Assembly (NCBI RefSeq): GCF_024684275.1
Contig: NZ_JAIKXF010000021.1
Span: forward strand, 1-46,789
Source: Ruminococcus sp.
GTDB lineage: Bacteria > Bacillota_A > Clostridia > Oscillospirales > Ruminococcaceae
Reading direction: 5' to 3'
Length of the DNA: 46,789 nucleotides
Below the pieces are notes generated by a model, which had not been told where the DNA came from, searched no databases, and saw only the letters and a list, made by a program, of their open reading frames with translations. Each line of letters opens with the position of its first letter. Position 1 is the first letter of the stretch. The position numbers and the translations under genes are program-made. This document shows positions 3,498 through 46,342 of the stretch, piece by piece.

Positions 3498-5357
3498 TTA
3501 ATTCTGTTCCTTTATCCTCATGGCTCTCATTGCGTTGAGAATAGCGATTACCGATACTCCCACATCTGCAAAGACAGCCAGCCACATATTTGCTATGCCG
3601 AGAGCCCCCAGCAGAAGGACGATAAACTTTACTCCGAGAGCAAATATGATATTCTGATATACTATTTTTAATGTACGCTTTGAGATATCCATAGCAAGGG
3701 ATATTTTTTCGGGATCGTCGTCCATGAGGACTATATCTGCGGCTTCTATGGCTGCGTCAGAGCCAAGAGAGCCCATTGCTATGCCCACATCAGCCCGTGA
3801 GAGCACTGGGGCGTCATTTATGCCGTCACCTACGAATACAAGGCTTCCCTTCGGAGACTTTTCTTCAAGGAGCTGCTCCACCTTTTCTACCTTATCCGCA
3901 GGAAGAAGCTCGCTGTAAGCCTTATCGAGCCCCAGCTCCTTCATGGCAGCCTCTGCTGCCGAGGAGGAATCTCCCGTAAGCATTACGGTCTGCTTTACGC
4001 CTCGTTCTTTCAGGCGCTTGATAGCATTTTTTGAAGAATCCTTTACCTTGTCGGCTATGACGATGTGGCCTGAGTACTGACCGTTGTCGGATATGTGTAC
4101 CATAGTACCTGCCTTATCACAGGGGATTACCTCTACGCCCATTTTGTCCATGAGCTTGGAATTTCCTGCGCATATCTCATGCTGGTCGATAACTGCTTTT
4201 ATGCCGTGACCTGAAATTTCTTCATTTGAGCTGATCCTGCTTCTGTCAGTCTCTCTGCCGTATTTCGAGGATATAGAGTGAGCGATTGGGTGGTCTGAGT
4301 AGCTTTCCGCATATGCTGCAAGCTCAAGGAGCTTATCCTCGTCTATACCGTGCGGATGTATCTCGTCGACCTCAAATACACCCTTTGTAAGGGTGCCTGT
4401 CTTGTCAAAGACTACTATCTCAGCATTTGCGAGGACTTCAAGGAAGTTTCCGCCCTTTATGAGTATTCCCTTTTTGCTTGCGCCGCCTATGCCGCCGAAG
4501 AAGCTGAGGGGGACTGATATGACCAGTGCGCATGGGCAGGAGATGACAAGGAAAATAAGCGCTCTGTGTATCCACATTGCCCAGCTTCCGCCTGTGATAA
4601 GAGGTGGAAGAACTGCCAGCAGCAGAGCTGATATTACTACAGCAGGGGTATAATATTTTGCAAATTTTGTGATGAAATTCTCTGCTTTTGCTTTTTTAGA
4701 GGCTGAATTCTCGACGAGGTCAAGTATCTTTGATACTGTAGAGTCCTCGTATTCCTTGGTGACTTCGACTTTAAGCACACCGCTTTGATTTATGCAGCCG
4801 CTTATCACGCTGTCACCTGCTCTGACAGTGCGCGGAACGCTTTCACCTGTAAGAGCAGAGGTGTCTACAGAGGAAGTACCGTCAACGACTATGCCGTCAA
4901 GAGGTATTCTTTCGCCGGGTTTTATGACAATGAGCTGTCCCTGCTCTACCTCCTCGGGATCAGCCTCTGTCAGCTTGCCGTCGATCTCGATATTTGCATG
5001 ATCGGGGCGTATATCCATGAGAGAAGCAATGTTTTTTCTTGATTTGCCCACGGCGATGCTCTGGAAAAGCTCGCCTGTCTGATAGAAAAGCATTACCGCA
5101 GCTGCCTCGGGGTATTCCCTTACGGCGAGAGCTCCGATAGTAGCGACAGCCATAAGGAAATTCTCGTCAAATACCTGTCCGTTTCTGATATTGCGTATTG
5201 CTTTCCACAGAACGTCCCAGCCTATGATACCATAGGGAACAAGAAATGCCGCCAGCCTTAAAAGGCTTTTTTCTTCAAGTGGCAGCAATGCGGCGGCTAT
5301 CAGAAGAACGGCTGCTGCGATTATCCTTATAAGAATATTTTTCTGCTTTTTGCTCAT
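3498..5357 (-). CDS. Zn/Cd/Pb-type P1B-ATPase metal exporter
   Basis: 619 residues. Ordered motifs: N-terminal membrane helices (about 8-50 and 66-95), actuator TGES (170-173), CPC in SCPCALVISVP (274-276) in the metal-binding helix, phosphorylation site DKTGTLT (Asp318), the HP dipeptide in SDHPIAHS, hinge GDGINDAP, and a last helix with DVGVSVIAILNAMR. CPC followed by ALVISVPLSFFGG, with a Asp-x-Gly late in the last membrane pair, is the pattern of the CadA/ZntA (P1B-2) group that expels Zn2+, Cd2+ and Pb2+. The usual N-terminal HMA domain is absent; it is encoded as a separate protein just upstream (5362-5586), only 4 nt away, so the pair is probably co-translated. The operon also has a SmtB-like repressor, which supports zinc or cadmium as the signal. 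Confidence 0.92.
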   Translation of the reverse strand: MSKKQKNILIRIIAAAVLLIAAALLPLEEKSLLRLAAFLVPYGIIGWDVLWKAIRNIRNGQVFDENFLMAVATIGALAVREYPEAAAVMLFYQTGELFQSIAVGKSRKNIASLMDIRPDHANIEIDGKLTEADPEEVEQGQLIVIKPGERIPLDGIVVDGTSSVDTSALTGESVPRTVRAGDSVISGCINQSGVLKVEVTKEYEDSTVSKILDLVENSASKKAKAENFITKFAKYYTPAVVISALLLAVLPPLITGGSWAMWIHRALIFLVISCPCALVISVPLSFFGGIGGASKKGILIKGGNFLEVLANAEIVVFDKTGTLTKGVFEVDEIHPHGIDEDKLLELAAYAESYSDHPIAHSISSKYGRETDRSRISSNEEISGHGIKAVIDQHEICAGNSKLMDKMGVEVIPCDKAGTMVHISDNGQYSGHIVIADKVKDSSKNAIKRLKERGVKQTVMLTGDSSSAAEAAMKELGLDKAYSELLPADKVEKVEQLLEEKSPKGSLVFVGDGINDAPVLSRADVGIAMGSLGSDAAIEAADIVLMDDDPEKISLAMDISKRTLKIVYQNIIFALGVKFIVLLLGALGIANMWLAVFADVGVSVIAILNAMRAMRIKEQN

Positions 5358-5361
5358 AGCT

Positions 5362-5586
5362 TTATTTCAGGACTATCTCGCAGTCAGGCTCTACCTTTTT
5401 ACACAGCTTGACTACTTTTTTCATCAGCTCGTCAAAGTCGGTGCCGTCAGCAGCCTTGATAGTCATTTTCTGCGTCATGAAGCTGACAACTGCGTCCTCT
5501 ACCTCGGGAAGCTCCTTTATTCCGTTTTCCATTTTTGCTGCACAGTTAGCACAGTCAAGATCAATAAGCTTAAATACTTTTTTCAT
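5362..5586 (-). CDS. Stand-alone heavy-metal-associated (HMA) domain protein
   Basis: 74 residues, one ferredoxin-like HMA domain. The metal site is D-C-A-N-C-A-A (Cys13 and Cys16), with an Asp just before the first Cys. In zinc/cadmium-handling HMA domains an acidic residue next to the CxxC pair is common, whereas copper domains usually read GMTCxxC. The protein would carry the metal in the cytosol and hand it to the ATPase encoded immediately downstream. The start is preceded by AAAGGA at normal distance. This is either a domain split off from the ATPase N-terminus or an independent chaperone gene; both arrangements are known in Firmicutes. Confidence 0.88.
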   Translation of the reverse strand: MKKVFKLIDLDCANCAAKMENGIKELPEVEDAVVSFMTQKMTIKAADGTDFDELMKKVVKLCKKVEPDCEIVLK

Positions 5587-5612
5587 AATAATTATCCTTT
5601 CTTTTAAGAGGT

Positions 5613-5969
5613 CTATTCCATTATATGCTCCATACCCATGCCGATTATATGCCTTACGTGTTCATCGGCGAGGGAATAGAATATTGTTTTGCCGTCACGG
5701 CGGGCTCTGACCAGCTTGTTGTTTTTCAGGACTCTCAGCTGATGCGAACAGGCTGTAGGGGTGAGACTCAGAAACTGCGCAAGATCGCTTACGCACAGCT
5801 CATCGGATTCCAGCAGGGTATACAGTATGCGTATCCTTGTACTGTCGCCGAATACCTTGAACAGCTCTGCAAGATCGTAAAGCCTTTCGTCGGCAGGCAT
5901 TTCAGCGCTTAGCTTCATGGCTTTTTCAGCTGTTATAGCATAATAGCTCGTATCCTGTTTTTCTGCCAT
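5613..5969 (-). CDS. ArsR/SmtB-family zinc-responsive repressor
   Basis: 118 residues, winged helix. The recognition part is TPTACSHQLRVLKNNKLV and the wing GKTIFYSL. Two metal sites can be read. The alpha-5 site is Asp102, His104, His115, Glu118, with spacings 2, 11 and 3 that match the zinc ligands of cyanobacterial SmtB (D-x-H...H-x2-E). An alpha-3 type Cys59 (ELCVSDLA) sits where CadC and SmtB carry a cysteine. The protein should bind DNA without metal and release it on zinc (possibly cadmium) binding. It is the first gene of the efflux operon, and a 12-2-12 operator lies between its promoter and its start codon (GGAAAGGAAG upstream), so it very likely regulates itself, the HMA protein and the ATPase. 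Confidence 0.92.
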   Translation of the reverse strand: MAEKQDTSYYAITAEKAMKLSAEMPADERLYDLAELFKVFGDSTRIRILYTLLESDELCVSDLAQFLSLTPTACSHQLRVLKNNKLVRARRDGKTIFYSLADEHVRHIIGMGMEHIME

Positions 5970-33823: not shown

Positions 33824-33863
33824 GCAGTGGTATCGAAGTGGTCATAACGGACATGACTCGAAA
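33824..33863 (+). pseudogene. Orphan 5' half of tRNA-Ser(CGA)
   Basis: 40 nt that match the first 40 nt of the complete tRNA at 33992 at 38 positions, including 33 consecutive identical bases (33831-33863 against 33999-34031). The match stops directly after the anticodon loop CTCGAAA. The remaining 128 nt to the intact gene show no tRNA 3' half. A break at the anticodon loop is a common crossover point for tRNA-targeting tyrosine integrases. Confidence 0.85.
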
Positions 33864-33991: not shown

Positions 33992-34080
33992 GCAGCGATA
34001 TCGAAGTGGTCATAACGGACATGACTCGAAATCATGATGCCCCTTGAGGGACGTGGGTTCGAATCCCACTCGCTGCGCCA
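33992..34080 (+). tRNA. tRNA-Ser (anticodon CGA)
   Basis: 89 nt. Acceptor GCAGCGA pairs with TCGCTGC; anticodon stem CATGA/TCATG with loop CTCGAAA, so anticodon CGA (codon UCG); long variable arm typical of serine tRNA; T-arm GTGGG-TTCGAAT-CCCAC; encoded CCA end. It is followed by a terminator at 34104-34140. Confidence 0.95.
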
Positions 34081-34209: not shown

Positions 34210-35130
34210 TTATACGGCTGTTGCTTCAGCCGATTCGTTTGAGAGCGCTTTGGCTATCGCCTCGGCACTCATTTTCTTGCTTTCGCTGTCCACATGGCTG
34301 TACACGTTGCTCGTTGTACTTATGTCGCTATGACCGAGCCATTCCTGTATCAGCTTCATCTGCACTCCGTTTGCAAGGAGGAGACTGGCACAGCTGTGTC
34401 TCAGGTCATGGAAACGTATCTTCCGCAGACCGTTCTGCCTGAGCACTATCGGGAAGTGGTCTGATACATAGTTGGGACGTATCAGTTCTCCCACAGCGTC
34501 CACGCAGATGTATTCCTTGTACTTCTTGCAGTAACCTCTGCCGAAGGCTTTCTTCATTTCAGCCTGCTTTTCACGCTCGGCGATGAGTGCCTGCTCGACT
34601 ACGGGTATCAGCGGAAGCGTTCTGTATGACGATTTTGTTTTCATTACATCGTAGCCTGTCACTCCGTCCTCGTCCTGCAACACCTTGTGCTGATGCTTAT
34701 GGTCTTACCGACGAAGTCCACCGCCGACCATTTAAGTCCGATGACCTCGCTGCGGCGCAGTCCGTAGTAGGCAGCAATCACGATTACGATATGCAGCGGA
34801 TCGTTCTTTGTGCAGTCGATGAGCTGCTTTATCTCCTCAGCGTTGTAGTAGCTGCCGATGAACTGCACCGACTTCGGGCGGTCAGCCTGATCGACGGGAT
34901 TCGTCGGAATAATACGCCGCTTCATAGCAGATTTGAATGCAAGGTGCAGGAGCGAGTGATGTCGCTGGCAGGAAGTACCTTTCATACCTCTGCCGCGGAG
35001 ATAAGCATAATACTCGTTTATCTCATCGCCTGTGATCTCCTTGACCTTGACCTTCATCTTCTTGAAGAATGGTATCATGTGTACGTCCATGTACCGCTTG
35101 TAACTTGTGTATGTGGACTTAGTGATGTTG
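34210..35130 (-). pseudogene. Tyrosine recombinase (phage/ICE integrase), frameshifted and N-terminally truncated
   Basis: The C-terminal part (34210-34683) carries HDLRHSCASLL, LGHSDISTTSNVYSHV, that is His-x-x-Arg, His and nucleophile Tyr. The N-terminal part (34659-35090) has a core-binding SAM-like domain and the first catalytic Arg in YYGLRRSEVIGLKW. The two parts are in different frames: near 34680 one base is missing relative to the expected Ser-His-Lys-Val-Leu-Gln reading. Further upstream the frame hits a stop at about 35130, so the N-terminal arm-binding domain is gone. The gene points at the 3' end of tRNA-Ser(CGA), the usual position of an integrase that uses that tRNA as attachment site. 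Not functional as it stands. Confidence 0.85.
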
Positions 35131-35937: not shown

Positions 35938-38007
35938 TTATACCGTAAGATCGGTCATACTTTTCAGACCGATCGCCAATGTCGAAGCATTATGCAGCAA
36001 AGCAGATGTCGCAGGCGGAAGTACGCCGAGTACTCCAAGTCCGATAAGTCCGCCGTTGAATCCGATAATAGTGCGGTAATTCCGGCTGATACGCTTCATC
36101 AGTGCGTTGCTCAAACGTTTAAGCTCAACAAGTGCATAGAGGTCATCTGCCGAGATAGTAATATCCGCAATTTCACGGGCTATGGCAGCTCCTGTACTTA
36201 TGGCTATGCCTGCGTCAGCCTCACTAAGAGCAGGAGAATCGTTCACACCGTCGCCTATCATTATGACCTTGCGCCCTGCTTCGTGTTCGGTGCGTATGAA
36301 CGCTGCCTTTTCCTCGGGGAGAACCTCTGCATGGTATTCGTCAACACCGACCTTTTCAGCAACAGCTTTAGCGGTGCTCTCATTGTCGCCCGTCATCATT
36401 ACCACACGGGATATACCGTATTCATGCAGCTTCTGCACAACATCAGCGGCTTCTTCACGGAGCGGGTCTTCAATGCATATCACTGCTGCGACTTCACCGC
36501 CGATGGCAAGATAAAGGTGAGAATACTCCATCGGCAAATGCCTGAAGATACGCTCATCAGGCGGAGTACAGCCCTCGTCCTCAATGATGAAATGATGACT
36601 TCCTATGAGTACACGTTCGCCTTCGACCATACTCGAAATACCGTGAGCGACAACATATTCTACCCTTGAATGGAACTCCTCGTGTTCAAGTCCTCTCTCA
36701 GCAGCCGCAGCAACTACTGCGTTTGCGATAGAGTGGGGATAATGCTCCTCTAAGCAGGCTGCAAGTCTCAGCATTTCTGTTTCATCACGACCGCCGAACG
36801 GAATGATCTGTGCTACACGCGGCTGCGAATGTGTCAGTGTGCCGGTCTTATCAAATACGATCGTATCTGCATCGGCCACCGCTTCGAGGAATTTGCCGCC
36901 CTTGACCGTAATACCTGCTTCTGCGCACTGGCGCATCGCAGAGAGCACCGAGATCGGCATGGCGAGCTTCAATGCACAGGAGAAATCCACCATCAGGATC
37001 GACACAGCCTTTGTTGCATTGCGTGTCAGCAGCCAGGTCAGCAGCGTTCCGCCCAGACACCACGGCACGAGCTTGTCAGCAAGATGTGAAGCCTTGCTCT
37101 CTGCTGATGATTTCATATGCTCCGATTCTTCGATCATTTTCACGATGCGGTCATACCGTCCGCTGCCTGCGGTATTCTCGACCTGTACTGTGCATTCGCC
37201 GTCCTCGACAACAGTTCCTGCGTAGACATAAGCGCCCTCAGATTTGTGAACCGGTACGGATTCGCCAGTCATAGATGCCTGATTGATCATCGCATCGCCG
37301 GCGATCACCTTTCCGTCCAGCGGGATCATTGAGCCGGTACGCACAATGACACGGTCGCCCTTCTGGATCTGTGTGACGGGAACAAGCATCTCCTGTCCGT
37401 CCTCCGTCTGCATCCATACCTGTTCCACACCGAGCGACATGGTTCTTGCGAGATCATCGACAGATTTCTTGTGCGTCCATTCATCGAGAATATCACCGAT
37501 CTTCAGAAGGAACATCACGCTTCCGGCAGTATTGAAATCATCGCGCAGCATCGACACAGTGATCGCAACAGCATCGAGCACCTCGACTTCCAGTTTTCCG
37601 TGCATCAGGCATTTCAGCCCTCTGCGGAGATATTTCAGCGCTGTGAAAAAAGAAATCAGCCGGCGGAAAGGCAGTGGCAGCAGGAATTTGTGGATAACAC
37701 GCCGCATGACCGCAGATGCCAGCTTTTCTTCGTATTCACGGTTCAGCACTCTGCCTGTCTGTGCCGGAACAAGCGCTTCCGTTTCCTCATTGTACCGAAA
37801 ATGCGCGAGTGCAGACAGCACCGTTTTCCGATCACAGCAGTAATACAAGATCACGTCACAAGTGCGGTCATATACCTGAACTTTGGTGATGCCGCTGACC
37901 GCAGAAAGTGCATATTCAGCCATATCCGCCTGATGCAGCGTCATATAGTTCTGGCAGAAACGGACGCGGATACGCCCTTTTGATTCATGCAGTATCTTAC
38001 ATTTCAT
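35938..38007 (-). CDS. P1B-type ATPase without CPC, candidate ferrosome ATPase FezB
   Basis: 689 residues. N-terminal ferredoxin-like domain (about 1-75) without CxxC but with an Arg patch (KGRIRVRF). Helices about 105-175; TGES (248-251); the metal-helix motif is MVDFSCALKLAMP (Ser343-Cys344) instead of CPC; phosphorylation Asp386 in DKTGTLT; HP in YPHSIAN; GDGVNDSP. It is clearly not the CadA/ZntA or CopA type. The combination with the small glycine-zipper gene upstream and an AraC-type gene before that recalls fezX-fezA-fezB of C. difficile, where FezB (P1B-6 ATPase) is thought to load iron into ferrosome vesicles. The iron assignment is inference; manganese, zinc or cobalt remain possible. 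GAGGTG precedes the start. Confidence 0.85.
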   Translation of the reverse strand: MKCKILHESKGRIRVRFCQNYMTLHQADMAEYALSAVSGITKVQVYDRTCDVILYYCCDRKTVLSALAHFRYNEETEALVPAQTGRVLNREYEEKLASAVMRRVIHKFLLPLPFRRLISFFTALKYLRRGLKCLMHGKLEVEVLDAVAITVSMLRDDFNTAGSVMFLLKIGDILDEWTHKKSVDDLARTMSLGVEQVWMQTEDGQEMLVPVTQIQKGDRVIVRTGSMIPLDGKVIAGDAMINQASMTGESVPVHKSEGAYVYAGTVVEDGECTVQVENTAGSGRYDRIVKMIEESEHMKSSAESKASHLADKLVPWCLGGTLLTWLLTRNATKAVSILMVDFSCALKLAMPISVLSAMRQCAEAGITVKGGKFLEAVADADTIVFDKTGTLTHSQPRVAQIIPFGGRDETEMLRLAACLEEHYPHSIANAVVAAAAERGLEHEEFHSRVEYVVAHGISSMVEGERVLIGSHHFIIEDEGCTPPDERIFRHLPMEYSHLYLAIGGEVAAVICIEDPLREEAADVVQKLHEYGISRVVMMTGDNESTAKAVAEKVGVDEYHAEVLPEEKAAFIRTEHEAGRKVIMIGDGVNDSPALSEADAGIAISTGAAIAREIADITISADDLYALVELKRLSNALMKRISRNYRTIIGFNGGLIGLGVLGVLPPATSALLHNASTLAIGLKSMTDLTV

Positions 38008-38023
38008 TTACAACACCTCACAA

Positions 38024-38049
38024 TAAAACAGACCGCCGGAGCGGTCTGT
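38024..38049 (-). terminator. Hairpin between the DUF6110 and ATPase genes
   Basis: ACAGACCGC (38028-38036) pairs with GCGGTCTGT (38041-38049), 4-nt loop. On the minus strand TTTTATTG follows. It is a weak terminator or a 3'-end protector that could make the small protein more abundant than the ATPase. Confidence 0.6.
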
Positions 38050-38067
38050 ATCTGGTTATTCTTCTGC

Positions 38068-38361
38068 TTATTCAGTGGCAGCATCTTCAATGACAGTTTC
38101 AGCTGTATCCGCAATGGCAGCTTCTGCTTCGGCAGCAGCGCGTTCTGCGTTGATGTCCTTTGCATCGCTGAGAATATCATCGCAGTTCTCACGAACGGTT
38201 GTGACAGTTTCCATCACAGTGTCCTTTGCACGAAGGACAGCAGCAGTTGCGTTTGTATAGCATTTTTTTGCATCTTTGCTGCTCAGAATCTTGATGCCGG
38301 CTGTACCAAACAGCACACCGCCTGCAAATAAGCCAAGCTTTGCCCAAGGTAGACGGCTCAT
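38068..38361 (-). CDS. Small glycine-zipper protein, DUF6110-like, candidate FezA
   Basis: 97 residues from ATG 38361 (AGAGGTGATCTGT upstream). One N-terminal hydrophobic helix with regularly spaced glycines (GLFAGGVLFGTAG, about 9-22), then a charged amphipathic, probably coiled-coil part (about 30-97), rich in Ala/Glu. Glycine-zipper helices pack tightly in membranes. I match this to the DUF6110 family found next to P1B ATPases in clostridia, and to FezA, the ferrosome-associated membrane protein of C. difficile, from memory of size and order, not from alignment. Its own promoter candidate lies at 38384-38413. Confidence 0.75.
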   Translation of the reverse strand: MSRLPWAKLGLFAGGVLFGTAGIKILSSKDAKKCYTNATAAVLRAKDTVMETVTTVRENCDDILSDAKDINAERAAAEAEAAIADTAETVIEDAATE

Positions 38362-38383
38362 ACAGATCACCTCTTTTTTATTC

Positions 38384-38413
38384 CGGAGCAGTTGCTCCGT
38401 TTTAAACATTATA
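38384..38413 (-). promoter_or_regulatory. Internal promoter and palindrome before the DUF6110 gene
   Basis: On the minus strand an extended -10 TGCTATAAT (hexamer 38408-38413) has no clear -35. Directly downstream lies the perfect palindrome CGGAGCA-AC-TGCTCCG (38384-38399). It covers the predicted start point, so it may be an operator, or else a 5' hairpin of the transcript. Confidence 0.5.
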
Positions 38414-38433
38414 GCATAGTAATGATTTGCTTT

Positions 38434-38805
38434 CTACTCCAAACGGACACGGCGGTATTCTGTGGGCGTACAGTCCAGGACGCTGCAAAATGCCGCGGAA
38501 AATTTGCTTGCATTGTCATAGCCGCAGGCTTCGGCAATATCAATGACACGCAAATTAGTTATCTCTAACTCATGGGCAGCCCAAAGCATTTTCTCTTTGC
38601 GGATATGCGCAAATAATGGAGCGGCATAAATGCGGCGGTATGCCAGCTTGAGTTTTGTAGGAGAAACACCTGCACGGGCTGCAAGAAACGAGATCGTAAA
38701 ATGCTCCTGCTTATGCTCCATACAAAAGGAAAATGTACTTTTGGCAAGCTGTTGCTCAGCCGGAGTTGGCTCAGTTGTTTTGTGCGAAGTAGGTGTCTGT
38801 TTCAT
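38434..38805 (-). CDS. Stand-alone AraC-type DNA-binding domain
   Basis: 123 residues with only the two helix-turn-helix units of AraC regulators: the first around FTISFLAARAGVSPTKLKL and the second IDIAEACGYDNASKFSAAF followed by TPTEYR. There is no sensor domain. The second unit is nearly the same as that of the full-length AraC protein in this operon (44463-45440): GYDNASKFSAAF is identical. It could bind the same sites and compete with, or dimerise with, the full-length regulator. The start overlaps the EcfA stop by 4 nt. By position it corresponds to fezX in the fezXAB order. Confidence 0.85.
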   Translation of the reverse strand: MKQTPTSHKTTEPTPAEQQLAKSTFSFCMEHKQEHFTISFLAARAGVSPTKLKLAYRRIYAAPLFAHIRKEKMLWAAHELEITNLRVIDIAEACGYDNASKFSAAFCSVLDCTPTEYRRVRLE

Positions 38806-40253
38806 GTTGTTTCCTTTCCTTTGTATTCGCTTTCGATCCCGCCGTTTTCAATATGCAGAATATGTGTGCAGCAGCGGTCGATCAGTTCCATATCATGTGT
38901 CACGATCAGCACAGTGATTTCCTTATCCAGCGAGCGGAGAAGCTCCGCCGTACATTCCATACTGCGGAAATCCAGACCGCTTGTGGGCTCGTCAAATACA
39001 AGCAGCTTTTTGCCAGCAAGCAGCGCCGAAGCGATCGCAGCACGCTGCTTCTGTCCGCCGGAAAGTGACATTGGGTGTCGGTCTTTGTATTCTGAAATAT
39101 TCAGCTTTTGAAGAATATCCAATGCAGTTTGTTCTCCGGAATCTTCAGTACCGAGCATGACTTCCTCCAGTACCGTTTCCGCAAACAACTGATGATTCAC
39201 ATCCTGCATGACCATGTATGAAAGCCGCAGCATATCCTTTGAGCGATATGCTTTCCCGTTGATATTGACCGTGCCTTTGAAACGCTTTTGCAGTCCGCAC
39301 AGACATTTTGTGAACGTGGATTTTCCCGCACCGTTGTGGCCGACCACAGCAATTACTGCACCTATCGGTATAGCAAGCTCAGGAATATTGAGCACTTCCT
39401 GCTTTCCGTAGCCATATATGAAACCATTGAGCGTTATCATATCAATGTCCTCAAATGGTTTTATCTGTGTCAATCCTGTTTTGCTTTCAAGGTGATTATT
39501 GGCTGTCAGGACCGCCCGAAGCCCCATACTGCTGAACTTTTCCGCAGGCAGAGAAAAGAACGCTTCACCTGTAAATTCTGCTGAAATACCGCCGTTTTCC
39601 ATAAATAGTACTCTGTCACATGATCCGCTGAGCCAGCCCAGCCGGTGTTCCGCAATGACGATCGTTTTGCCCTGCGATTTCCATTTTCGGATTATCTCAC
39701 GCAGCTCGTCGATCGCATCAAGGTCAAGGTTGGAGGTAGGCTCATCAAGTACGATCAGTTCCGGCAGCATAGCCGCTACACCTGCACAGGCTATCTTCTG
39801 CTTTTCACCGCCTGACAGATTGAAAATGCTTCTGCCGAGCAGCTTTTGAATGTGCATATCTGCAGCGGTGCTGTCGATTCGCTGCTGAATAACAGATTCA
39901 GGCAAACCCATATTCTCACACCCGAATGCGAGCTCTGCTGTGGTATCCACGCAGAAAAACTGGCTTCTCGGATTCTGGAACACACTGCCGACGATGCCTG
40001 CAAGGTCTTCTATCGGGGTATCGCAGATATTCTTTCCCATGACGGACACATAACCGTCAAGCATACCCTCGTAATAGTGCGGTATCAAGCCGTTCAGTAA
40101 ACGTGTGACGGTTGTTTTTCCGCAGCCGGAGCTGCCGCAGAGCAAAACGCATTCACCGTGCCTTATTTCGAGGTCGAGAGCATTTAACGCTCCTTGCCCT
40201 CCATTTGCATATCTGAATGTGACGCCTCTCAGGACAGCCGCATTCTCGCTCAT
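38802..40253 (-). CDS. ECF/CbiO-type double ATPase (EcfA1-EcfA2 fusion)
   Basis: 483 residues from ATG 40253, whose ATGA overlaps the EcfT stop. Two complete ATP-binding cassettes in one chain: first Walker A GSSGCGKTT, signature LSGGEKQ, Walker B LIVLDEPTS; second Walker A GHNGAGKST, signature LSGGQKQ, Walker B LLVFDEPTS. Such fused ATPases power energy-coupling factor importers with an EcfT and an S component. A frame 32 codons longer runs into ecfT and is rejected. Energises uptake through the EcfT (40250) and MptD/Trep_Strep-type S component (45437). Confidence 0.92.
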   Translation of the reverse strand: MSENAAVLRGVTFRYANGGQGALNALDLEIRHGECVLLCGSSGCGKTTVTRLLNGLIPHYYEGMLDGYVSVMGKNICDTPIEDLAGIVGSVFQNPRSQFFCVDTTAELAFGCENMGLPESVIQQRIDSTAADMHIQKLLGRSIFNLSGGEKQKIACAGVAAMLPELIVLDEPTSNLDLDAIDELREIIRKWKSQGKTIVIAEHRLGWLSGSCDRVLFMENGGISAEFTGEAFFSLPAEKFSSMGLRAVLTANNHLESKTGLTQIKPFEDIDMITLNGFIYGYGKQEVLNIPELAIPIGAVIAVVGHNGAGKSTFTKCLCGLQKRFKGTVNINGKAYRSKDMLRLSYMVMQDVNHQLFAETVLEEVMLGTEDSGEQTALDILQKLNISEYKDRHPMSLSGGQKQRAAIASALLAGKKLLVFDEPTSGLDFRSMECTAELLRSLDKEITVLIVTHDMELIDRCCTHILHIENGGIESEYKGKETT

Positions 40254-40984
40254 TTTACCACTCCTGTCATACCAAGTATCCACAATATGTACACTGTCCC
40301 GCTGACTGCTGCTACGGCGAAGTCCTGCATATGAAATCCTATTCTGCAAATGTTCGTGCGCCGTACCTCCGTGCCAAGTCCGCGAGTCAGAGCCGCCGCC
40401 GAGAGTTCGCTGCCGATATTCACCGAGCAGACCATGAGCGGCACAAGGCGGTACTCTATGAACTTACCTGCATTTCTGCCGCCGATGCGAATGTCACGCA
40501 TTTTCATTGCAGTGCTGATCGCCCTGAATTCCTCCAGTACGGTCGGAAAGAAACGGAACATCACAGACAGCGGTATCGTGATCTGCTGCGGAATGTGCAT
40601 ACGGTGCATCGCTGCGATAAATTCGCTGACAGTCGTTGACGAGAGCATATATGCGCCCATGACAAGTCCGGGCATAAGCCGTACAAATATCAGGCAGCAC
40701 AGTCCGATAACGCTCAGTACGGCACCTGTGATATTGGGAACAATGAATATCTCTGCCGATTTGATCAGTGTATACAAGATACCGAATACAGCCGCCTTTC
40801 TGTATTGTTTTGCAGTCATAAGCAGTGCGACAGGAAGGATACTGATGACGATAGTGCCATAGTGGACTGCCAAAATATCACTGCCTGTACCGCCGAGCGC
40901 AAATACTACAAGCGTTATCATCACAAACAGCTTTGTCCGCGGATCGAGTACAAGACCTCTGTTTTCAATGTCTGCCGTAAACAT
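40250..40984 (-). CDS. ECF transporter transmembrane component EcfT (CbiQ family)
   Basis: 244 residues from ATG 40984, which follows GGAGACTGTGAA and comes just after the stop of the ABC gene at 40986. Four to five membrane helices, followed by the two coupling motifs that touch the ATPases: RAISTAMKMRD and SAAALTRGLGTE, both of the Ala-x-x-x-Arg-Gly kind. It links the S component to the double ATPase. The longer frame from GTG 41011 overlaps the ABC gene and is less likely. Confidence 0.9.
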   Translation of the reverse strand: MFTADIENRGLVLDPRTKLFVMITLVVFALGGTGSDILAVHYGTIVISILPVALLMTAKQYRKAAVFGILYTLIKSAEIFIVPNITGAVLSVIGLCCLIFVRLMPGLVMGAYMLSSTTVSEFIAAMHRMHIPQQITIPLSVMFRFFPTVLEEFRAISTAMKMRDIRIGGRNAGKFIEYRLVPLMVCSVNIGSELSAAALTRGLGTEVRRTNICRIGFHMQDFAVAAVSGTVYILWILGMTGVVK

Positions 40985-40985
40985 T

Positions 40986-42719
40986 TCACAGTCTCCACGA
41001 AGCAGCTTCACGCCTGCTTTCCACGAATCTCCGGTAAATGCCGTCCGACTGCATAAGCGTATCGTGTGTACCTTGCTGTGCTATCCTGCCACTGTCTATA
41101 ACAAGTATCTGATCGGCATTGCGGACGGTTTTGAGCCTGTGTGCTATCATAATAATGGTCTTTTCTCTGGTCAGTTCGTCAATTGCCTTCATCAGGTCGG
41201 CTTCGTTTTCGGGATCAACATTTGCAGTCGCCTCATCAAGGACTATTATCGGAGCGTCTTTCATAATAGCTCTTGCAATGGAAATACGCTGTTTTTCGCC
41301 GCCCGAAAGACTTGCTCCGCCTTCGCCGATGACAGTATCGTACCCGTCGGGAAGCTGCATGATAAAGTCATGGCAGCAAGCCTTTTTCGCCGCATCTATG
41401 ACCTTTTCCATGGGTGCATCAGGCTGTCCGAAGCGTATATTATTGGCTATGGTATCCGCAAACAGGTACACACGCTGGAACACAAAGCTGTAATTCTTCA
41501 TCAGAGCGTCCATACTGTATTCCCGCACATCTCTGCCGCCCAGCGTGACTGTTCCATCGTCCACGTCCCAGAAGCGTGAAAGCAGCGAAGTGAGTGTTGT
41601 TTTTCCTCCACCCGAAGGTCCGACGATAGCCGTAGTTGTGCGCTCGGGGATATGCAGTGAAATGCCGTCGATTATCTTTCTTTGCTCATATGCAAAGCCA
41701 ATATTTTCCGCTGTTATGTCAAAATGCTCTGGCTGAATATCCTCGCCCGAAATATCCATCTGCGGCGTTGCAAGGATCTCCTGCGCCTGCCTGACCGATA
41801 CATCGACTGTTCTAAGCAGAGCGGAATATTTGCCTGCATTGTCAAGCTGCGCATAGATCAGATAGGAGCTGATGATCATGATGATCGTTGTCAGCAAGTC
41901 CATTGTTTCGCCGATATGCAGCAGGATCGATACCAGCACGATGATCGTTCCGAGAGCTTTTAGCCAGAAGCTTTGCAGTGTCATATAGGGAATGAGCTTT
42001 AACTCCATAGCCGAATTGGCGAGTTCGTTCTCGTCTATCGCAACGTTAAGGTCTTTACTGCGTTTGCCGGTCAGTCGGAATGTCCTGACCTCGAAAATAC
42101 CCTGAATGTACTCGATGACTTTTGCAACGAGCGCAGAATCCTTCTCGAATTTCTGCTTCGCCATACTTGAGGATTCTTTCATCATACCGCTGTTTATCAG
42201 GAAGAATACCACAAGTCCGCCGCAGAGGATCAGTCCGATACGCCAGTCGAAGCACAGCAGCATAACGGTAATGACCGCAGTGGAAAGCAATCCCGAGCAA
42301 ACCAGCATAACTACTCTTGTGGCGACATTTTCAAGATTCTGCATAGTATTTGTCGTCACCGACATGATATGCCCGAGGCTGTTTTCGTTATAGTAGCCCA
42401 TGGGCAGATAACGCAGATGCTCCGCAAGCTGCATACGCTTGTTAGCACAGGTGTTGTAGCCGCCCTCAGTCTGGAGCATGGTCGCTTTGCTCTTTGCAAT
42501 GCCTGCACCGATCACGCTCACAAGCATGATGCAAAGGCAGGTCAGACAGGTTTTTGAGGTTACGTTTTTATCAAGGAGTGCCGAAATCATACAAGCGATA
42601 GCAGGTATTTTCAGTGCTTCAAACATCGCCTGCAAAAGGTTCAGGGCAATGGAAATATAGAAGCGTTTTCTGTCCTCCGCATTGCAGAAATCAAAGAAGT
42701 TTTTCAGTATCTTAAACAT
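40986..42719 (-). CDS. ABC half-transporter, IrtB/YbtQ-like
   Basis: 577 residues from ATG 42719 (GGTGAGGACA upstream), overlapping the previous gene by 8 nt. Six-helix type IV exporter-fold membrane domain (about 1-310), then an ATPase with Walker A GPSGGGKTT, Q-loop YSFVFQRVYLF, signature LSGGEKQR, Walker B IIVLDEATANVDPENE and H-loop AHRL. Pairs of such half-transporters with exporter fold import siderophores in mycobacteria (IrtAB) and Yersinia (YbtPQ). Here the partner is the gene just upstream. The combination with an ECF system and AraC regulator recalls the equibactin and yersiniabactin loci. Transported substrate not known. Confidence 0.88.
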   Translation of the reverse strand: MFKILKNFFDFCNAEDRKRFYISIALNLLQAMFEALKIPAIACMISALLDKNVTSKTCLTCLCIMLVSVIGAGIAKSKATMLQTEGGYNTCANKRMQLAEHLRYLPMGYYNENSLGHIMSVTTNTMQNLENVATRVVMLVCSGLLSTAVITVMLLCFDWRIGLILCGGLVVFFLINSGMMKESSSMAKQKFEKDSALVAKVIEYIQGIFEVRTFRLTGKRSKDLNVAIDENELANSAMELKLIPYMTLQSFWLKALGTIIVLVSILLHIGETMDLLTTIIMIISSYLIYAQLDNAGKYSALLRTVDVSVRQAQEILATPQMDISGEDIQPEHFDITAENIGFAYEQRKIIDGISLHIPERTTTAIVGPSGGGKTTLTSLLSRFWDVDDGTVTLGGRDVREYSMDALMKNYSFVFQRVYLFADTIANNIRFGQPDAPMEKVIDAAKKACCHDFIMQLPDGYDTVIGEGGASLSGGEKQRISIARAIMKDAPIIVLDEATANVDPENEADLMKAIDELTREKTIIMIAHRLKTVRNADQILVIDSGRIAQQGTHDTLMQSDGIYRRFVESRREAASWRL

Positions 42720-44463
42720 TGTCCTCACCGTCCTTTGCTGAAATATGTGCCGCCCACATTTTACTGTACAGACCGTTCTGTGCAAGAAGTTCTTCGTGCG
42801 TGCCCTGTTCTGCGATCATACCGTCCCTGATGACATAGAGCCTGTCGGCGTTCTTCACGGTCGAGAGCCTGTGTGCGATAACAATAAGCGTTTTGCCTTC
42901 CACGAGTTTTGCAACGCTCTTCTGAATGACTGCTTCATTTTCGGGATCTGTGTAAGCTGTTGCTTCATCGAGAATGATGATATCCGCGTTTTTGAGCATG
43001 GCTCTTGCAATAGAAATACGCTGACGCTCACCGCCCGAAAGATGTCCGCCTGATGAACCGACAACTGTATCATAGCCGCTTTCAAGGCTCATGATAAAAT
43101 CGTGGCAGCCGCATTTTCTTGCCGCTTCCTCAACCTCACTGTCGGTCGCAGACTGGTTTCCGAGACGGATATTCTCACGGACAGTCAGATCGAAGAGATA
43201 ATTATCCTGTGAAACATAGGCGATCTTATCATTGTAATCGTCAAGGGGAATATCCCTGATATCCACACCGCCGAGAGAAATACTTCCGCTGCTGACATCC
43301 CAGAGGCTTGCGATAAGCCTTGCAACGGTGGATTTGCCGCTGCCGGAAGGTCCGACAAGCGCGATAAATTCGCCCTTATGGATCGTCATTGAAATGCCGT
43401 GGATGATCTCCTTGTCATCATAGCCGAAATGTACATTGTCAAGTACAATATCTCCTCCGCTGATAGTTTTCGTCAGCTTTTCGGGGCGTACCATTTCGGG
43501 TGCATCTATGATATTTCTGACTTCTGTCACGATCGTGTCCATTTGAGCAATATCATCAGCATAGGACATGATACCGAGAAACGGTTCAATCAGACCTACT
43601 GTCAGAATAATGACGGTGATAAAATCGGCTGTGCTGATCGTTCCGTGCATGGTCATGATACCACCGATGGGCAGAACGGAAAGCATTGTCGCAGGCATGA
43701 TGCACATAGCAAAGGTCATATACACGTTGCATTTGCGCATCCAGTCAACGAAACTTGCGGCACTTTCTTTAGCGGCGGCAGCAAATTTCTCATAGCTGGA
43801 CTGTGCCTTGCCGAACACCTTGATGACCTCAATGCCGCCTATATATTCCGCTGTGACGGCATTGAGTGCCTTTGTGGCACGGACAGTCCTGCTGTAATTC
43901 TCCTCATATCCGAACATCATGAGCATATAGCAGATAAACCCCAGCGGCACCGTGATGAGCGCTGCAAGTCCCAGCTTCCAGTTCACCGTGAACGCATATA
44001 TCAGTATAATTATCGGAGCGCCGATGCCGGTCGTGAACTCAGGTAGAATATGTGCAAGCGTTGTTTCGATACTGTCGATACGCTCCACGATCGTGCTTTT
44101 CAGAGCGCCCGAAGGCTGAATGATAACATTGCCGAGAGGCATTTTTGCCAGCTTATCAAGAGCCTTTTTGCGTATCACTGCAAGTGTGTGAAATGTCGCA
44201 AGGTGTGAATTAGCCGTACTCAGTGCATGAAACAGCGAGTGTCCCAGCCACAGCGCAAGTATCACAGTACAATTGATGATGTATGCGCTTTTATCGGTGC
44301 TGCCTGCAAGCAGGTCTTTTACGATACGCGCAATAAAATAGTATGGCACGATACCGCAGAGCATACTGATCGCCGCAAGTATAACGCTTGCGGCAAACTT
44401 TCCTTTTCGCTCACCGGACTGCCTGAGCAGCCAGCCGAATGAGCCGTTTTTATCCTTTCCCAT
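42712..44463 (-). CDS. ABC half-transporter, IrtA/YbtP-like
   Basis: 583 residues. Six hydrophobic helices (about 20-310), then the ATPase: Walker A GPSGSGKST, signature LSGGERQR, Walker B IIILDEATAYTDPENE (Tyr-Thr before Asp where Ser-Val is usual), H-loop AHRLST. The start shares one base with the AraC stop (TAATG), so both are coupled. It should form a heterodimer with the next protein. No siderophore-interacting reductase domain, as in mycobacterial IrtA, is attached at the N-terminus. Confidence 0.88.
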   Translation of the reverse strand: MGKDKNGSFGWLLRQSGERKGKFAASVILAAISMLCGIVPYYFIARIVKDLLAGSTDKSAYIINCTVILALWLGHSLFHALSTANSHLATFHTLAVIRKKALDKLAKMPLGNVIIQPSGALKSTIVERIDSIETTLAHILPEFTTGIGAPIIILIYAFTVNWKLGLAALITVPLGFICYMLMMFGYEENYSRTVRATKALNAVTAEYIGGIEVIKVFGKAQSSYEKFAAAAKESAASFVDWMRKCNVYMTFAMCIMPATMLSVLPIGGIMTMHGTISTADFITVIILTVGLIEPFLGIMSYADDIAQMDTIVTEVRNIIDAPEMVRPEKLTKTISGGDIVLDNVHFGYDDKEIIHGISMTIHKGEFIALVGPSGSGKSTVARLIASLWDVSSGSISLGGVDIRDIPLDDYNDKIAYVSQDNYLFDLTVRENIRLGNQSATDSEVEEAARKCGCHDFIMSLESGYDTVVGSSGGHLSGGERQRISIARAMLKNADIIILDEATAYTDPENEAVIQKSVAKLVEGKTLIVIAHRLSTVKNADRLYVIRDGMIAEQGTHEELLAQNGLYSKMWAAHISAKDGEDNV

Positions 44464-45440
44464 TAAATATCCTCCTGTCTGTTACGATAATTCTGCGGTG
44501 TTGCGCCCATGACATCACGGAATGCCGCAGAGAATTTTGAAGCATTGTCATATCCTAGCCGCTGTGCAATGTCAGCGATATTCACTCTCCGATCAGAAAT
44601 CAGCATTTCTGCCGCCGTTTTCATCTTATAACTTTTGATGTACTGATACACAGGTGTGCCATATACTGCCTTAAACACCTTTCGCAGGGAAGCAGGCGGC
44701 ATTCCTGATATTTCGGAAAGCTCCTCGACCGTGAAAGTCTTATCGGGTCTGCTCGTGATAAGGGAATGTATCTCCTTGATCTTAGATGTCTGGCTTGCAG
44801 GAAAATACTGACGCTGTTCTGAATTTGCAGCGGTGTCAACGGCAGAAAGCAGCAGAAGCAGCTCTGCGATCTTCACCCTGAAAAAATCAAGCCTCATACT
44901 CTCAGGCGTATGGTACAGCTGTGAAAAAACAACATTCAGCTGTTCATTTGTACGGAGCAGAAATTCCTTATTCTCAGGGCAGAACTTTTTGCCAAGCATA
45001 TCCAGATCAACTGAAAGAAACGGCATCTCATGCCGGAGTGATTCCTGCGCTGCCCCTTGCATAAACCCTATGGTTATGCCGTGATAGTGGGAAAGCGGCA
45101 GTTCGACTCTGCCTGCATGATGCACACGCTTGTCAATACGCAGATCGCCTGCCTCCATATAGTAGCGCTCGCCGAGGGAGTTTTCATGCTCGATGCGTCC
45201 CTCCCGGCAGTGGTCTATACAAAGCACCGTATCCGCATTCTGATACTCCGATACACAGTGCTTCATATGAAAATCGTTATACATAAGATATATACCGTCA
45301 AACACGCGGTACATCGTCATAAAACCTTCGCCTGATCTATCCTCAAGGCGCAATACTCTGCAATTGCCCTCTGATGCGATCTCGTGAACATTAGAGCCGA
45401 AGCCGGCTTTGTCGAGTGTATCGAAAATGTCACGGCTCAT
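44463..45440 (-). CDS. AraC family regulator of the transport operon
   Basis: 325 residues. N-terminal about 1-215 is a sensor domain of the YbtA/PchR kind, without a cupin motif that I can confirm; the C-terminal about 225-325 has two HTH units: FTVEELSEISGMPPASLRKVF and IADIAQRLGYDNASKFSAAF followed by TPQNYR. Regulators of this type activate siderophore-uptake operons when the ligand is present. The gene follows the S-component gene with a 4-nt overlap and so controls, or is controlled with, the whole operon. Confidence 0.88.
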   Translation of the reverse strand: MSRDIFDTLDKAGFGSNVHEIASEGNCRVLRLEDRSGEGFMTMYRVFDGIYLMYNDFHMKHCVSEYQNADTVLCIDHCREGRIEHENSLGERYYMEAGDLRIDKRVHHAGRVELPLSHYHGITIGFMQGAAQESLRHEMPFLSVDLDMLGKKFCPENKEFLLRTNEQLNVVFSQLYHTPESMRLDFFRVKIAELLLLLSAVDTAANSEQRQYFPASQTSKIKEIHSLITSRPDKTFTVEELSEISGMPPASLRKVFKAVYGTPVYQYIKSYKMKTAAEMLISDRRVNIADIAQRLGYDNASKFSAAFRDVMGATPQNYRNRQEDI

Positions 45441-46003
45441 GCAATGCCTGCCTTTTCAAAATGCTTTTTCATCAAACGTCTTCCGATCAGTCCGCCGATG
45501 ATACCGCATACAAACGCTGCAATAAATGTAACCGGACACATCCATGTCGGCATTAGTTTTGTAACGGTGTCGATGTAGTCCTGTCCGAAATTCTGACGGG
45601 AAGCCCAGTATTTCTCCGCAGCAAAAAACAGCGGCAGATAGTTTGCAGCGACCCACAGGCTGAATATTCCGTTCGTGATTACAGCTTTTGCGGCACTCTT
45701 ATACTTTCCGCTTCTATAGATAAGCTCTGCGATCAGCCCGGTGAATACGGATACCGCAAGCGGCAGCCAGCTCATACCGGTCAGAAGCATAAGAATCCCC
45801 ATGATGATGCTCATGATCCATATCATACCGAATTTTCTGACCTTTGTCAGGAAGAGCATAAACGGTATTCCGCCGAGTATCGGGACAAGCACCGCCAGAA
45901 GCGGCAGGAAAATCGGTATAAAACCGAGCATTGCGATAATGAACACGATAACAAAATAGATCGCTGAGAAAATACCGATGTTGATCAGATCTTTACCTTT
46001 CAT
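45437..46003 (-). CDS. ECF S component, MptD/Trep_Strep family
   Basis: 188 residues, almost entirely hydrophobic: six helices (about 7-30, 32-52, 57-72, 75-95, 107-130, 155-178). N-terminal 'KDLINIGIFSAIYFVIVF' and the pattern 'LLAVLVPILGGIPFMLFLTKV' match the Trep_Strep / MptaS group of substrate-binding membrane proteins. It is the first gene of the operon and would capture the substrate for EcfT-EcfA, which lie four and five genes downstream. Family members near YbtPQ-like transporters are linked to metallophore or heme-type ligands; unproved here. TAGGAGGTAATT precedes the start. Confidence 0.85.
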   Translation of the reverse strand: MKGKDLINIGIFSAIYFVIVFIIAMLGFIPIFLPLLAVLVPILGGIPFMLFLTKVRKFGMIWIMSIIMGILMLLTGMSWLPLAVSVFTGLIAELIYRSGKYKSAAKAVITNGIFSLWVAANYLPLFFAAEKYWASRQNFGQDYIDTVTKLMPTWMCPVTFIAAFVCGIIGGLIGRRLMKKHFEKAGIA

Positions 46004-46019
46004 AATTACCTCCTATTTG

Positions 46020-46105
46020 GTTAGAGTCGACTAACTTTATGTCATAAAAATAAGTCTTCCTCCAAGACCATTACATATTATACCACAGACATAACGAGGT
46101 TTCAA
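46020..46105 (-). promoter_or_regulatory. Promoter and dyad of the ECF/ferrosome-like operon
   Basis: On the minus strand TTGAAA (46100-46105) and TATAAT (46077-46082), 17-nt spacer. Within the leader lies an imperfect dyad, GTTAGAGTCGACTAAC (46020-46035 on the plus strand), with arms GTTAG/CTAAC. The TTAG/CTAA arms resemble DtxR/IdeR-family iron boxes; a repressor there would block elongation. The identity of the regulator is a guess. Confidence 0.65.
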
Positions 46106-46342
46106 CTCCATTTTATTCTGGATGCTCCGATCTGATAATAATTTGAAATTCCCTGTCAGATCAGGCACAGTTATTTTTCTGACAATAAAAGTAAAAGCGT
46201 TTTTACTGACATGGCTAAAACGCTTAACTTTTTTTGATCAGCATTATTTTAGTTCAAAATCGTAAACAGCGGCGAATGCGCGTATTATCTTACTACCAAA
46301 GCAAACGACCGTAATAAAACGCCGTATAGTCTATCCTGAAAT

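Follow-up and report, generated by a model that had tools for sequence, protein, structure and literature searches.

A putative iron uptake-and-storage locus in Ruminococcus that joins an ECF-type importer to a ferrosome-like gene pair

A stretch of 46,789 nucleotides (nt) from the rumen bacterium Ruminococcus sp. (contig NZ_JAIKXF010000021.1 of assembly GCF_024684275.1; hereafter the window, meaning the whole of it) was found to carry nine minus-strand genes, all present and intact, between positions 46003 and 35938. They encode an energy-coupling-factor (ECF) importer with its substrate-binding S component, two half-size ATP-binding-cassette (ABC) transporters and two AraC-type regulators, followed by a small DUF6110 membrane protein and a P1B-type ATPase that resemble the ferrosome proteins FezA and FezB. 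We read this cluster, with moderate confidence, as an iron uptake-and-storage locus comprising two transcription units that belong to one regulon. The tie between uptake and storage was better supported as shared regulation than as one operon.

Genes were taken from the list of open reading frames (ORFs), with starts refined and stops checked, and their families were named by Pfam and NCBIfam profile matches (Table 1). These matches upheld the identities that a preliminary description of the stretch had proposed for all nine genes. After refinement, the junctions in gene order measured -4, -1, -8, +1, -4, -4, +72 (between the truncated regulator gene sAraC and fezA) and +60 nt (between fezA and fezB), so that coupling is tight across the first seven genes and fezA and fezB stand off from them; the overlaps of 1-8 nt previously claimed throughout the first seven were found at five of the six junctions, with a spacing of +1 nt at EcfT. 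FezA most likely starts at 38361, as a GAGGTG ribosome-binding site precedes that position. Relatives are cited below by locus (L) and genome (G) number. The ratio of nonsynonymous to synonymous substitution rates (dN/dS) was 0.08-0.14 against L291 for S, AraC (first 269 codons), ABC1, ABC2 and EcfT, 0.155 against L220 for the fused EcfA ATPase (EcfAA), and 0.06 and 0.10 against L001 for FezA and FezB, respectively.

Table 1. Features of the cluster, listed in the direction of transcription (window coordinates; HTH, helix-turn-helix; TM, transmembrane helix; aa, amino acids).
Feature	Position	Strand	Evidence and remarks
P1, promoter-like site before S	46077..46109	-	AraC-box-like GGAGTTGAAA overlapping -35, 17 nt, TATAAT, extended -10; 11/12 consensus
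Inverted repeat AGTTAG-N6-CTAACC	46019..46036		one mismatch to GGTTAG-N6-CTAACC; 5' leader of S, between -10 and S gene
ECF S component, Trep_Strep/MptD family, 188 aa	45437..46003	-	PF09605 217 bits; TIGR02185 172 bits
AraC-family regulator, 325 aa	44463..45440	-	beta-barrel sensor domain and HTH; HTH_18 74 bits
Half-ABC transporter 1 (ABC1), YbtP/IrtA-like, 583 aa	42712..44463	-	ABC_membrane and ABC_tran
Half-ABC transporter 2 (ABC2), YbtP/IrtA/YbtQ-like, 577 aa	40986..42719	-	ABC_membrane and ABC_tran; refined start
EcfT, CbiQ family, 244 aa	40250..40984	-	PF02361 60 bits
Fused EcfA-EcfA ATPase (EcfAA), 483 aa	38802..40253	-	two ABC_tran stretches in one protein; refined start
sAraC, AraC DNA-binding domain only, 123 aa	38434..38805	-	HTH_18 59 bits; overlaps EcfAA by 4 nt
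P2, fezA promoter-like site	38408..38440	-	GGAGTAGAAA-N17-TATAAT, extended -10; promoter-like site 38436-38408, 10/12 consensus
fezA-like, DUF6110 membrane protein, 97 aa	38068..38361	-	PF19605 126 bits; start via ribosome-binding site
Terminator-like hairpin, putative attenuator	38028..38049	-	between fezA and fezB
fezB-like P1B-6-type ATPase, 689 aa	35938..38007	-	E1-E2_ATPase and Hydrolase; SCA in TM4, HN in TM6; N-terminal GRIRVR

The shared regulation is indicated by a promoter element common to both units. The P1 promoter-like site itself occupies 46105-46077 and is preceded, at a distance of 19 nt, by another GGAG repeat (46128-46125); P2 lies directly upstream of fezA and is kept in relatives. 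Promoter-like and terminator-like sites alone prove little, since 20 and 14 of them were counted in the region versus 15.9 and 10.1 in shuffles, and the evidence lies in their conservation. The pattern GGAGTWGAAA-N17-TATAAT matched the window at P1 and P2 only, with a chance expectation of 0.06 when up to two mismatches were allowed; as the pattern was derived from these two sites, a genome search provided the independent test. In 10 related genomes, picked for holding fez or the importer, GGAGNNGAAA-N14-TGNTATAAT gave nine exact matches, every one of them at a promoter of an importer, an importer remnant or fezA. The matches at importer promoters in G005 and G008 have only an importer remnant behind them; G001 and G002 have the importer and fez on different contigs, with the box at each, and in G001 each unit was seen beside other genes. 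When one mismatch was tolerated, the 10 genomes yielded 35 matches, many unexplained, compared with two for a reversed control pattern. Promoter sequence was available for 13 AraC-type loci with an importer or a remnant of one, and every one of them had the P1 box, invariably with a second GGAG 19 or 20 nt upstream. Ahead of fezA, the box was found in 9/22 loci with an AraC-type gene upstream and in 2/68 without one (p = 3e-5, kinship not corrected), a count from which identical upstream stretches were removed and in which the distance rule placed L014 wrongly, missing its AraC gene and box.

The second HTH of AraC-family regulators usually touches the -35-proximal half-site. The predicted model of the window AraC (predicted local distance difference test score 84.8) comprises a barrel and an HTH and matched ToxT, Rns and AraC in Foldseek; together with the GGAG repeats spaced 19-20 nt apart before the -35 element, these are features of the YbtA/PchR type. 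Its sensor domain contains four Cys residues (27, 62, 78 and 154) that are invariant across 25 aligned sequences. Over 85 residues, AraC and sAraC show 44% identity, and both contain the 12 residues GYDNASKFSAAF. The sAraC protein corresponds to a truncated counterpart of a longer regulator, AraC2, that precedes fezA in relatives. AraC2 is 268 aa long in L333, where it carries GYCNASKFSGAF; in L334, L336 and L343-L346, the corresponding open frames measure 270-308 aa. The shared box, its association with AraC-type genes, the shared residues and the binding habit of the second HTH point to one regulator, or both, working at the importer promoter as well as at that of fezA. A separate palindrome, CGGAGCA-AC-TGCTCCG, was noticed in the fezA leader (38399-38384), with a similar GGAGCAGATGCTCC in L002, and may be a second operator or an RNA hairpin.

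A second candidate element, the inverted repeat in the S leader, was found at the same place in 10/13 importer loci (window, L007, L014, L046, L219, L220, L292, L333, L335 and L341) with a pattern that tolerated A/G and C/T at the repeat ends. In its exact form, GGTTAG-N6-CTAACC occurred at 19 sites in 11 genomes, three of which had none, versus one control match. Genes right behind it include feoB and those for an FTR1-family permease, pyruvate:ferredoxin oxidoreductase, a DUF2325 protein and several S components; some sites had no gene start nearby. In R. albus KH2T6 (L187/L011), the repeat precedes a DUF3793-flavodoxin-feoA-feoB-fezA-fezB-S-EcfT-EcfAA run, which diverges from a DtxR-family gene with an Fe_dep_repress domain. 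Given the iron genes behind the sites and a half-site resembling that of DtxR, with a longer spacer here, the repeat is probably the operator of an iron-dependent repressor. Iron repression was assessed through this repeat, which is missing from P2 of the window. The small DUF2325 protein gene stands behind three of the sites, in two genomes (L307:1570-1851 of G006, on which copy the Pfam assignment was made, and L308 of G008), and is a probable member of the iron regulon.

The ECF set proved complete, with S (PF09605), EcfT (PF02361) and two EcfA domains within one protein. Among the best 60 PDB matches, the highest-scoring half-length chain for ABC1 and ABC2 was 6p6i_A (303 and 299 bits), which was taken as YbtP by inference from its partner chain, YbtQ, and IrtA came next (283 and 260 bits), a ranking by score; two-domain ABCB1 chains outscored 6p6i_A in summed score. 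The half-length matches are in line with the previous naming of the pair as IrtAB/YbtPQ-like half-transporters. The substrate may be heme or another trace nutrient instead of a metallophore, a possibility of fair but less than even likelihood: the ECF system LhaSTA imports heme (PMC7299338), the CbiQ family of EcfT is also found in cobalt systems (NCBIfam names CbiQ, below cut-off), and no metallophore synthesis, nonribosomal peptide synthetase (NRPS) or thiazolinyl imide reductase genes were seen on inspection of the window ORF lists, for which no NRPS model was run. Against this, a similar gene set, with genes for two ABC proteins, an AraC regulator, an ABC ATPase, an Ecf transporter and a membrane protein, comes before that of a thiazolinyl imide reductase in 023_CTn1 of Clostridioides difficile (PMC6814731), and heme, too, would be an iron source. 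We infer that the importer takes up iron, as metallophore or heme.

In the second unit, the DUF6110 gene lies directly ahead of the ATPase gene, and the TM4 and TM6 motifs of the latter are those of the P1B-6 type; the preliminary description had likewise placed a DUF6110-like protein beside a CPC-less P1B ATPase. Across DUF6110-linked ATPases (n = 96, duplicates included), TM4 carried SCA in 84, CCA in 11 and TCA in one, and HN was present in all 92 that were readable (four gaps), compared with PCA in 17 and HN in 13 of 21 other P1B ATPases. SCA in TM4 is a P1B-6 mark, and DUF6110 putatively corresponds to FezA. HN in TM6 marks P1B-6 ATPases (PMC9374683), and both FezA and FezB are needed for ferrosomes in C. 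difficile (PMC12574912). The pair would constitute a FezA/FezB ferrosome-type module, and would presumably form granules. It is rather unlikely that the pair instead forms a metal-efflux or membrane-platform system of the PacL-CtpC kind, which would protect against iron overload during uptake with no organelle. DUF6110 is related to PacL/DUF1490, its genes typically accompany those of P1B6 ATPases, and assembly of membrane platforms has been suggested (PMC9374683); in NCBIfam, the ATPase best matches heavy-metal translocating families, several of which are exporters. The requirement for FezA and FezB in ferrosome formation speaks for the storage module, provided that the pair belongs to the same families.

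DUF6110 scored above cut-off in 25/197 genomes family-wide and in 24/391 class-wide. Neighbours were counted within about 10 kb of fez at 47 of the 48 above-cut-off loci (G259 left out; stretches up to 20 kb) and in 40 control stretches from the same genomes. FeoB was present at 14 loci versus one control, high-scoring half-ABC pairs at eight versus one, and a small HMA protein, possibly a metal chaperone, at seven versus none. Among all loci used in the analysis, some repeat one genome (L003/L145, L006/L186, L007/L188/L294, L011/L187 and L014/L297). By these counts, fez loci in these Clostridia tend to lie among iron genes, with the importer as one of several partners. The small HMA protein is encoded near fezAB at L152:12226-12492, L046:13596-13856, L333:19148-19408 and L342:8105-8371, and was assigned to HMA by Pfam in L152 and L046. 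As to a plasmid location of fez, the 12 best plasmid matches listed for the ATPase were uninformative, being only 33-39% identical and from other phyla.

The fezA-fezB gap contains a terminator-like hairpin that is conserved in relatives. A hairpin followed by a T-tract was scored in 26/70 gaps versus 40/3500 shuffled gaps, which is a low count because stems extending into the T-tract escape the finder (L002, L006, L014 and L333 scored none despite clear hairpins); it includes the window, the duplicate pairs L003/L145 and L007/L188, and a few odd matches (L042, L051 and L181). From the 101 fezA-fezB pairs (100 relatives plus the window), 31 were dropped owing to gaps shorter than 15 nt, some of which may result from wrong start choice. 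In an alignment of 15 Ruminococcus-type sequences, chosen for a visible hairpin from 24 inspected (L004, L008, L009, L011, L012, L013, L336, L342 and L346 were left out), 95.7% of cells pair, compared with 21-49% for slid partners. Two pairs change on both sides in a compensatory manner, a count reached by 77/500 shuffles, and pair 16/23 is broken in 5 of the 15 sequences. We read the hairpin as a putative attenuator that would lower fezB relative to fezA.

Comparison with relatives bears on how the two units came to stand together. In the close relative G001 (L291 and L001), the same importer was found at 88.1% DNA identity, the match ending ~18 nt inside the window sAraC, and a sAraC-fezA-fezB unit, 84.5% identical to that of the window, lies on another contig; the window thus joins two units that are separate in G001. 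In L001, sAraC is preceded at a distance of 24 nt by the gene of an unrelated ABC permease. The joined cluster recurs in G701 (L333), where all nine genes stand in the order of the window and EcfAA likewise overlaps the AraC gene by 4 nt; this locus has a full-length AraC2, the box at P1, a variant, GGAGCGGAAG, at P2, and the fezA-fezB hairpin. In G592 (L334), the importer genes up to EcfAA, FeoB, AraC2, fezA and fezB follow on one strand, with the modules ~8.5 kb apart and the importer cut within ABC1 by the end of the stretch examined. L007, L046 and L014 have kept P1, AraC and fez and lost much of the importer. Among 125 genomes of the genus, DUF6110 was detected in 43, a window-type EcfAA end (>180 bits) in 10 and both in 7 (p = 0.02); 36 of the 43 were without the EcfAA end, and 3 of the 10 importer genomes without DUF6110. 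Importer and fez lie on different contigs in G001, G598, G680, G684 and G002, and 73 kb apart in G588.

That the importer and the ferrosome-like module are chance neighbours, merely abutting and separately regulated with fezAB read from P2 only, is quite unlikely: fezA does have its own promoter-like site, the modules lie apart in the genomes just listed and L001 has the unrelated permease before sAraC, but the same box stands at both units even when they are unlinked, the joined state recurs in L333 with an identical overlap, and the three loci with a reduced importer keep P1 and AraC before fez. The survey of co-occurrence that the preliminary description called for thus returned a recurrent joined arrangement and both modules in 7/125 genomes of the genus. 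Its view of one operon joining uptake and ferrosome-type genes stands as regards the coupling of the first seven genes, the order that recurs in L333 and the shared promoter element, and was not supported as regards a single unit. A single promoter serving all nine genes was rejected as stated, in view of the conserved promoter-like site of fezA and the fezA-fezB hairpin, and the term "self-contained" was not supported, as the two modules are unlinked in G001 and G002 and each occurs without the other in the genus.

Several observations weigh against an iron uptake-and-storage locus under common control. At the promoters, one GGAG copy is found at P2 and two at P1, with no second GGAG at P2 of L046 or within 26 nt upstream of that of the window, and 79/90 fez loci are without the box under the pattern used. 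L291, L337 and L338 are without the inverted repeat under the pattern used, and the repeat of the window has a mismatch and, alone in the window, is no better than chance. Import by ABC1/ABC2 is only putative because, in Streptococcus equi, eqbHIJ is needed for iron uptake and the YbtPQ-like EqbKL is not and may export (PMC3672683). No metallophore synthesis genes were seen on inspection of the window ORF lists. The dN/dS of sAraC was 0.65 against L001 and 0.36 against L007 (0.13 against L002), and this weak constraint, along with the missing sensor domain, means that sAraC may be decaying. FezB is split over two frames in L046 and L014, which points to possible decay of these loci or to poor sequencing. 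Of the seven genus genomes with both modules, one (G701) has the complete joined cluster, a rare arrangement. Finally, neither the S component (4/47 versus 2/40) nor EcfAA (two versus two) was enriched near fez; two control stretches, L260 and L275, overlay S genes already known.

Some further observations on these loci and their surroundings were made. An in-frame mini S component precedes AraC at L007:7842-8030 (62 aa) and at L297:8050-8247 (66 aa; L014 and L297 are one genome); it consists of the first 46 and the last ~20 residues and is perhaps only a coupling leader. At L296:9191-15210 (G073), ABC1-ABC2 stands directly before a diverged fezA-fezB, with ABC1 86% identical to that of the window and a one-mismatch box ahead of it; no S, AraC or ECF match was obtained on this 15.2-kb contig, which represents a separate half-transporter-fez linkage. 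In the window, a tyrosine-integrase gene in two overlapping frames (34210-35090) lies beside tRNA-Ser(CGA) (33992-34080), and a partial tRNA copy of at least 33 nt starts at 33831, a possible remnant of an integrated element adjoining fez. With regard to a genomic island attached at the tRNA, the opposite side of the cluster holds no exact copy of any 14-mer from the tRNA-Ser region. Far from fez, at 3498-5969, the window encodes another P1B-like ATPase, CadA-like in appearance, together with an ArsR-family regulator.

Under the two-unit, one-regulon reading, unit 1 would run from P1 through S, AraC, ABC1, ABC2, EcfT, EcfAA and sAraC and provide an uptake system akin to the equibactin and yersiniabactin transporters. 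An iron-dependent repressor at the GGTTAG-N6-CTAACC element would probably close P1, and AraC, at the pair of GGAG repeats next to the -35, would probably open it, in the way that yersiniabactin promoters respond to Fur and YbtA. Unit 2 would lead from P2 through fezA and then, via the attenuating hairpin, to fezB, providing the ferrosome-type storage module with more FezA than FezB. Since P2 carries the same -35-proximal box as P1, AraC or sAraC, the last gene of unit 1, probably switches on storage while uptake runs. A feed-forward version, in which the AraC-type activator that ends the uptake operon turns on the ferrosome promoter, is offered tentatively.

The cluster shares traits with several known systems. 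With the ferrosome clusters of C. difficile and Desulfovibrio magneticus, it has in common a DUF6110 gene directly before a CPC-less P1B-6-type ATPase and a tie to iron loci; compared by description, it appears to differ in the AraC-type regulator and AraC-like box before fezA, in the fezA-fezB hairpin and in the physical link to an uptake operon. Where a ferrosome cluster would begin with the regulator gene fezX, the window has the AraC-type sAraC gene. The equibactin genes eqbHIJ-eqbKL of S. equi (PMC3672683) likewise combine an ABC uptake transporter with a YbtPQ-like half-transporter pair, and the 023_CTn1 siderophore cluster (PMC6814731) an ECF-like transporter, a YbtPQ-like pair and an AraC gene; in the window, no biosynthesis genes were seen and fez genes follow instead. 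Yersiniabactin ybtPQ/ybtA (PMC8725597) is similar in its AraC-type regulator, repeats near the promoter, iron-repressor site and half-ABC pair, YbtP being the best half-length PDB match, whereas the present cluster has a Gram-positive host, an ECF partner, AraC-type genes both inside the coupled block and as its last member, and storage genes downstream. The PacL-CtpC platforms of Mycobacterium also pair a small membrane partner with a P1B ATPase, and DUF1490 and DUF6110 are related (PMC9374683); DUF6110 is described as being without a metal-binding motif, and TM4 of the window ATPase has SCA, not CPC.

Ferrosomes have been shown in few bacteria. Whether further commensals or pathogens possess them is a question raised in a 2025 review (PMC12574912), and a literature search that left out most subscription journals showed, among the papers listed, no report of ferrosome genes tied to such uptake. 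The shared promoter box offers a directly testable answer as to the timing of ferrosome building, and from the conserved fezA-fezB hairpin, FezA and FezB are expected in unequal amounts. If the feed-forward version holds, building of the storage organelle would start once a particular iron carrier enters, before any iron excess, and the physical fusion would tighten a regulon already acting in trans in relatives. With DUF6110, usually before a P1B-6-type ATPase, in 43/125 genomes of the genus, rumen fibre degraders may store iron in this way.

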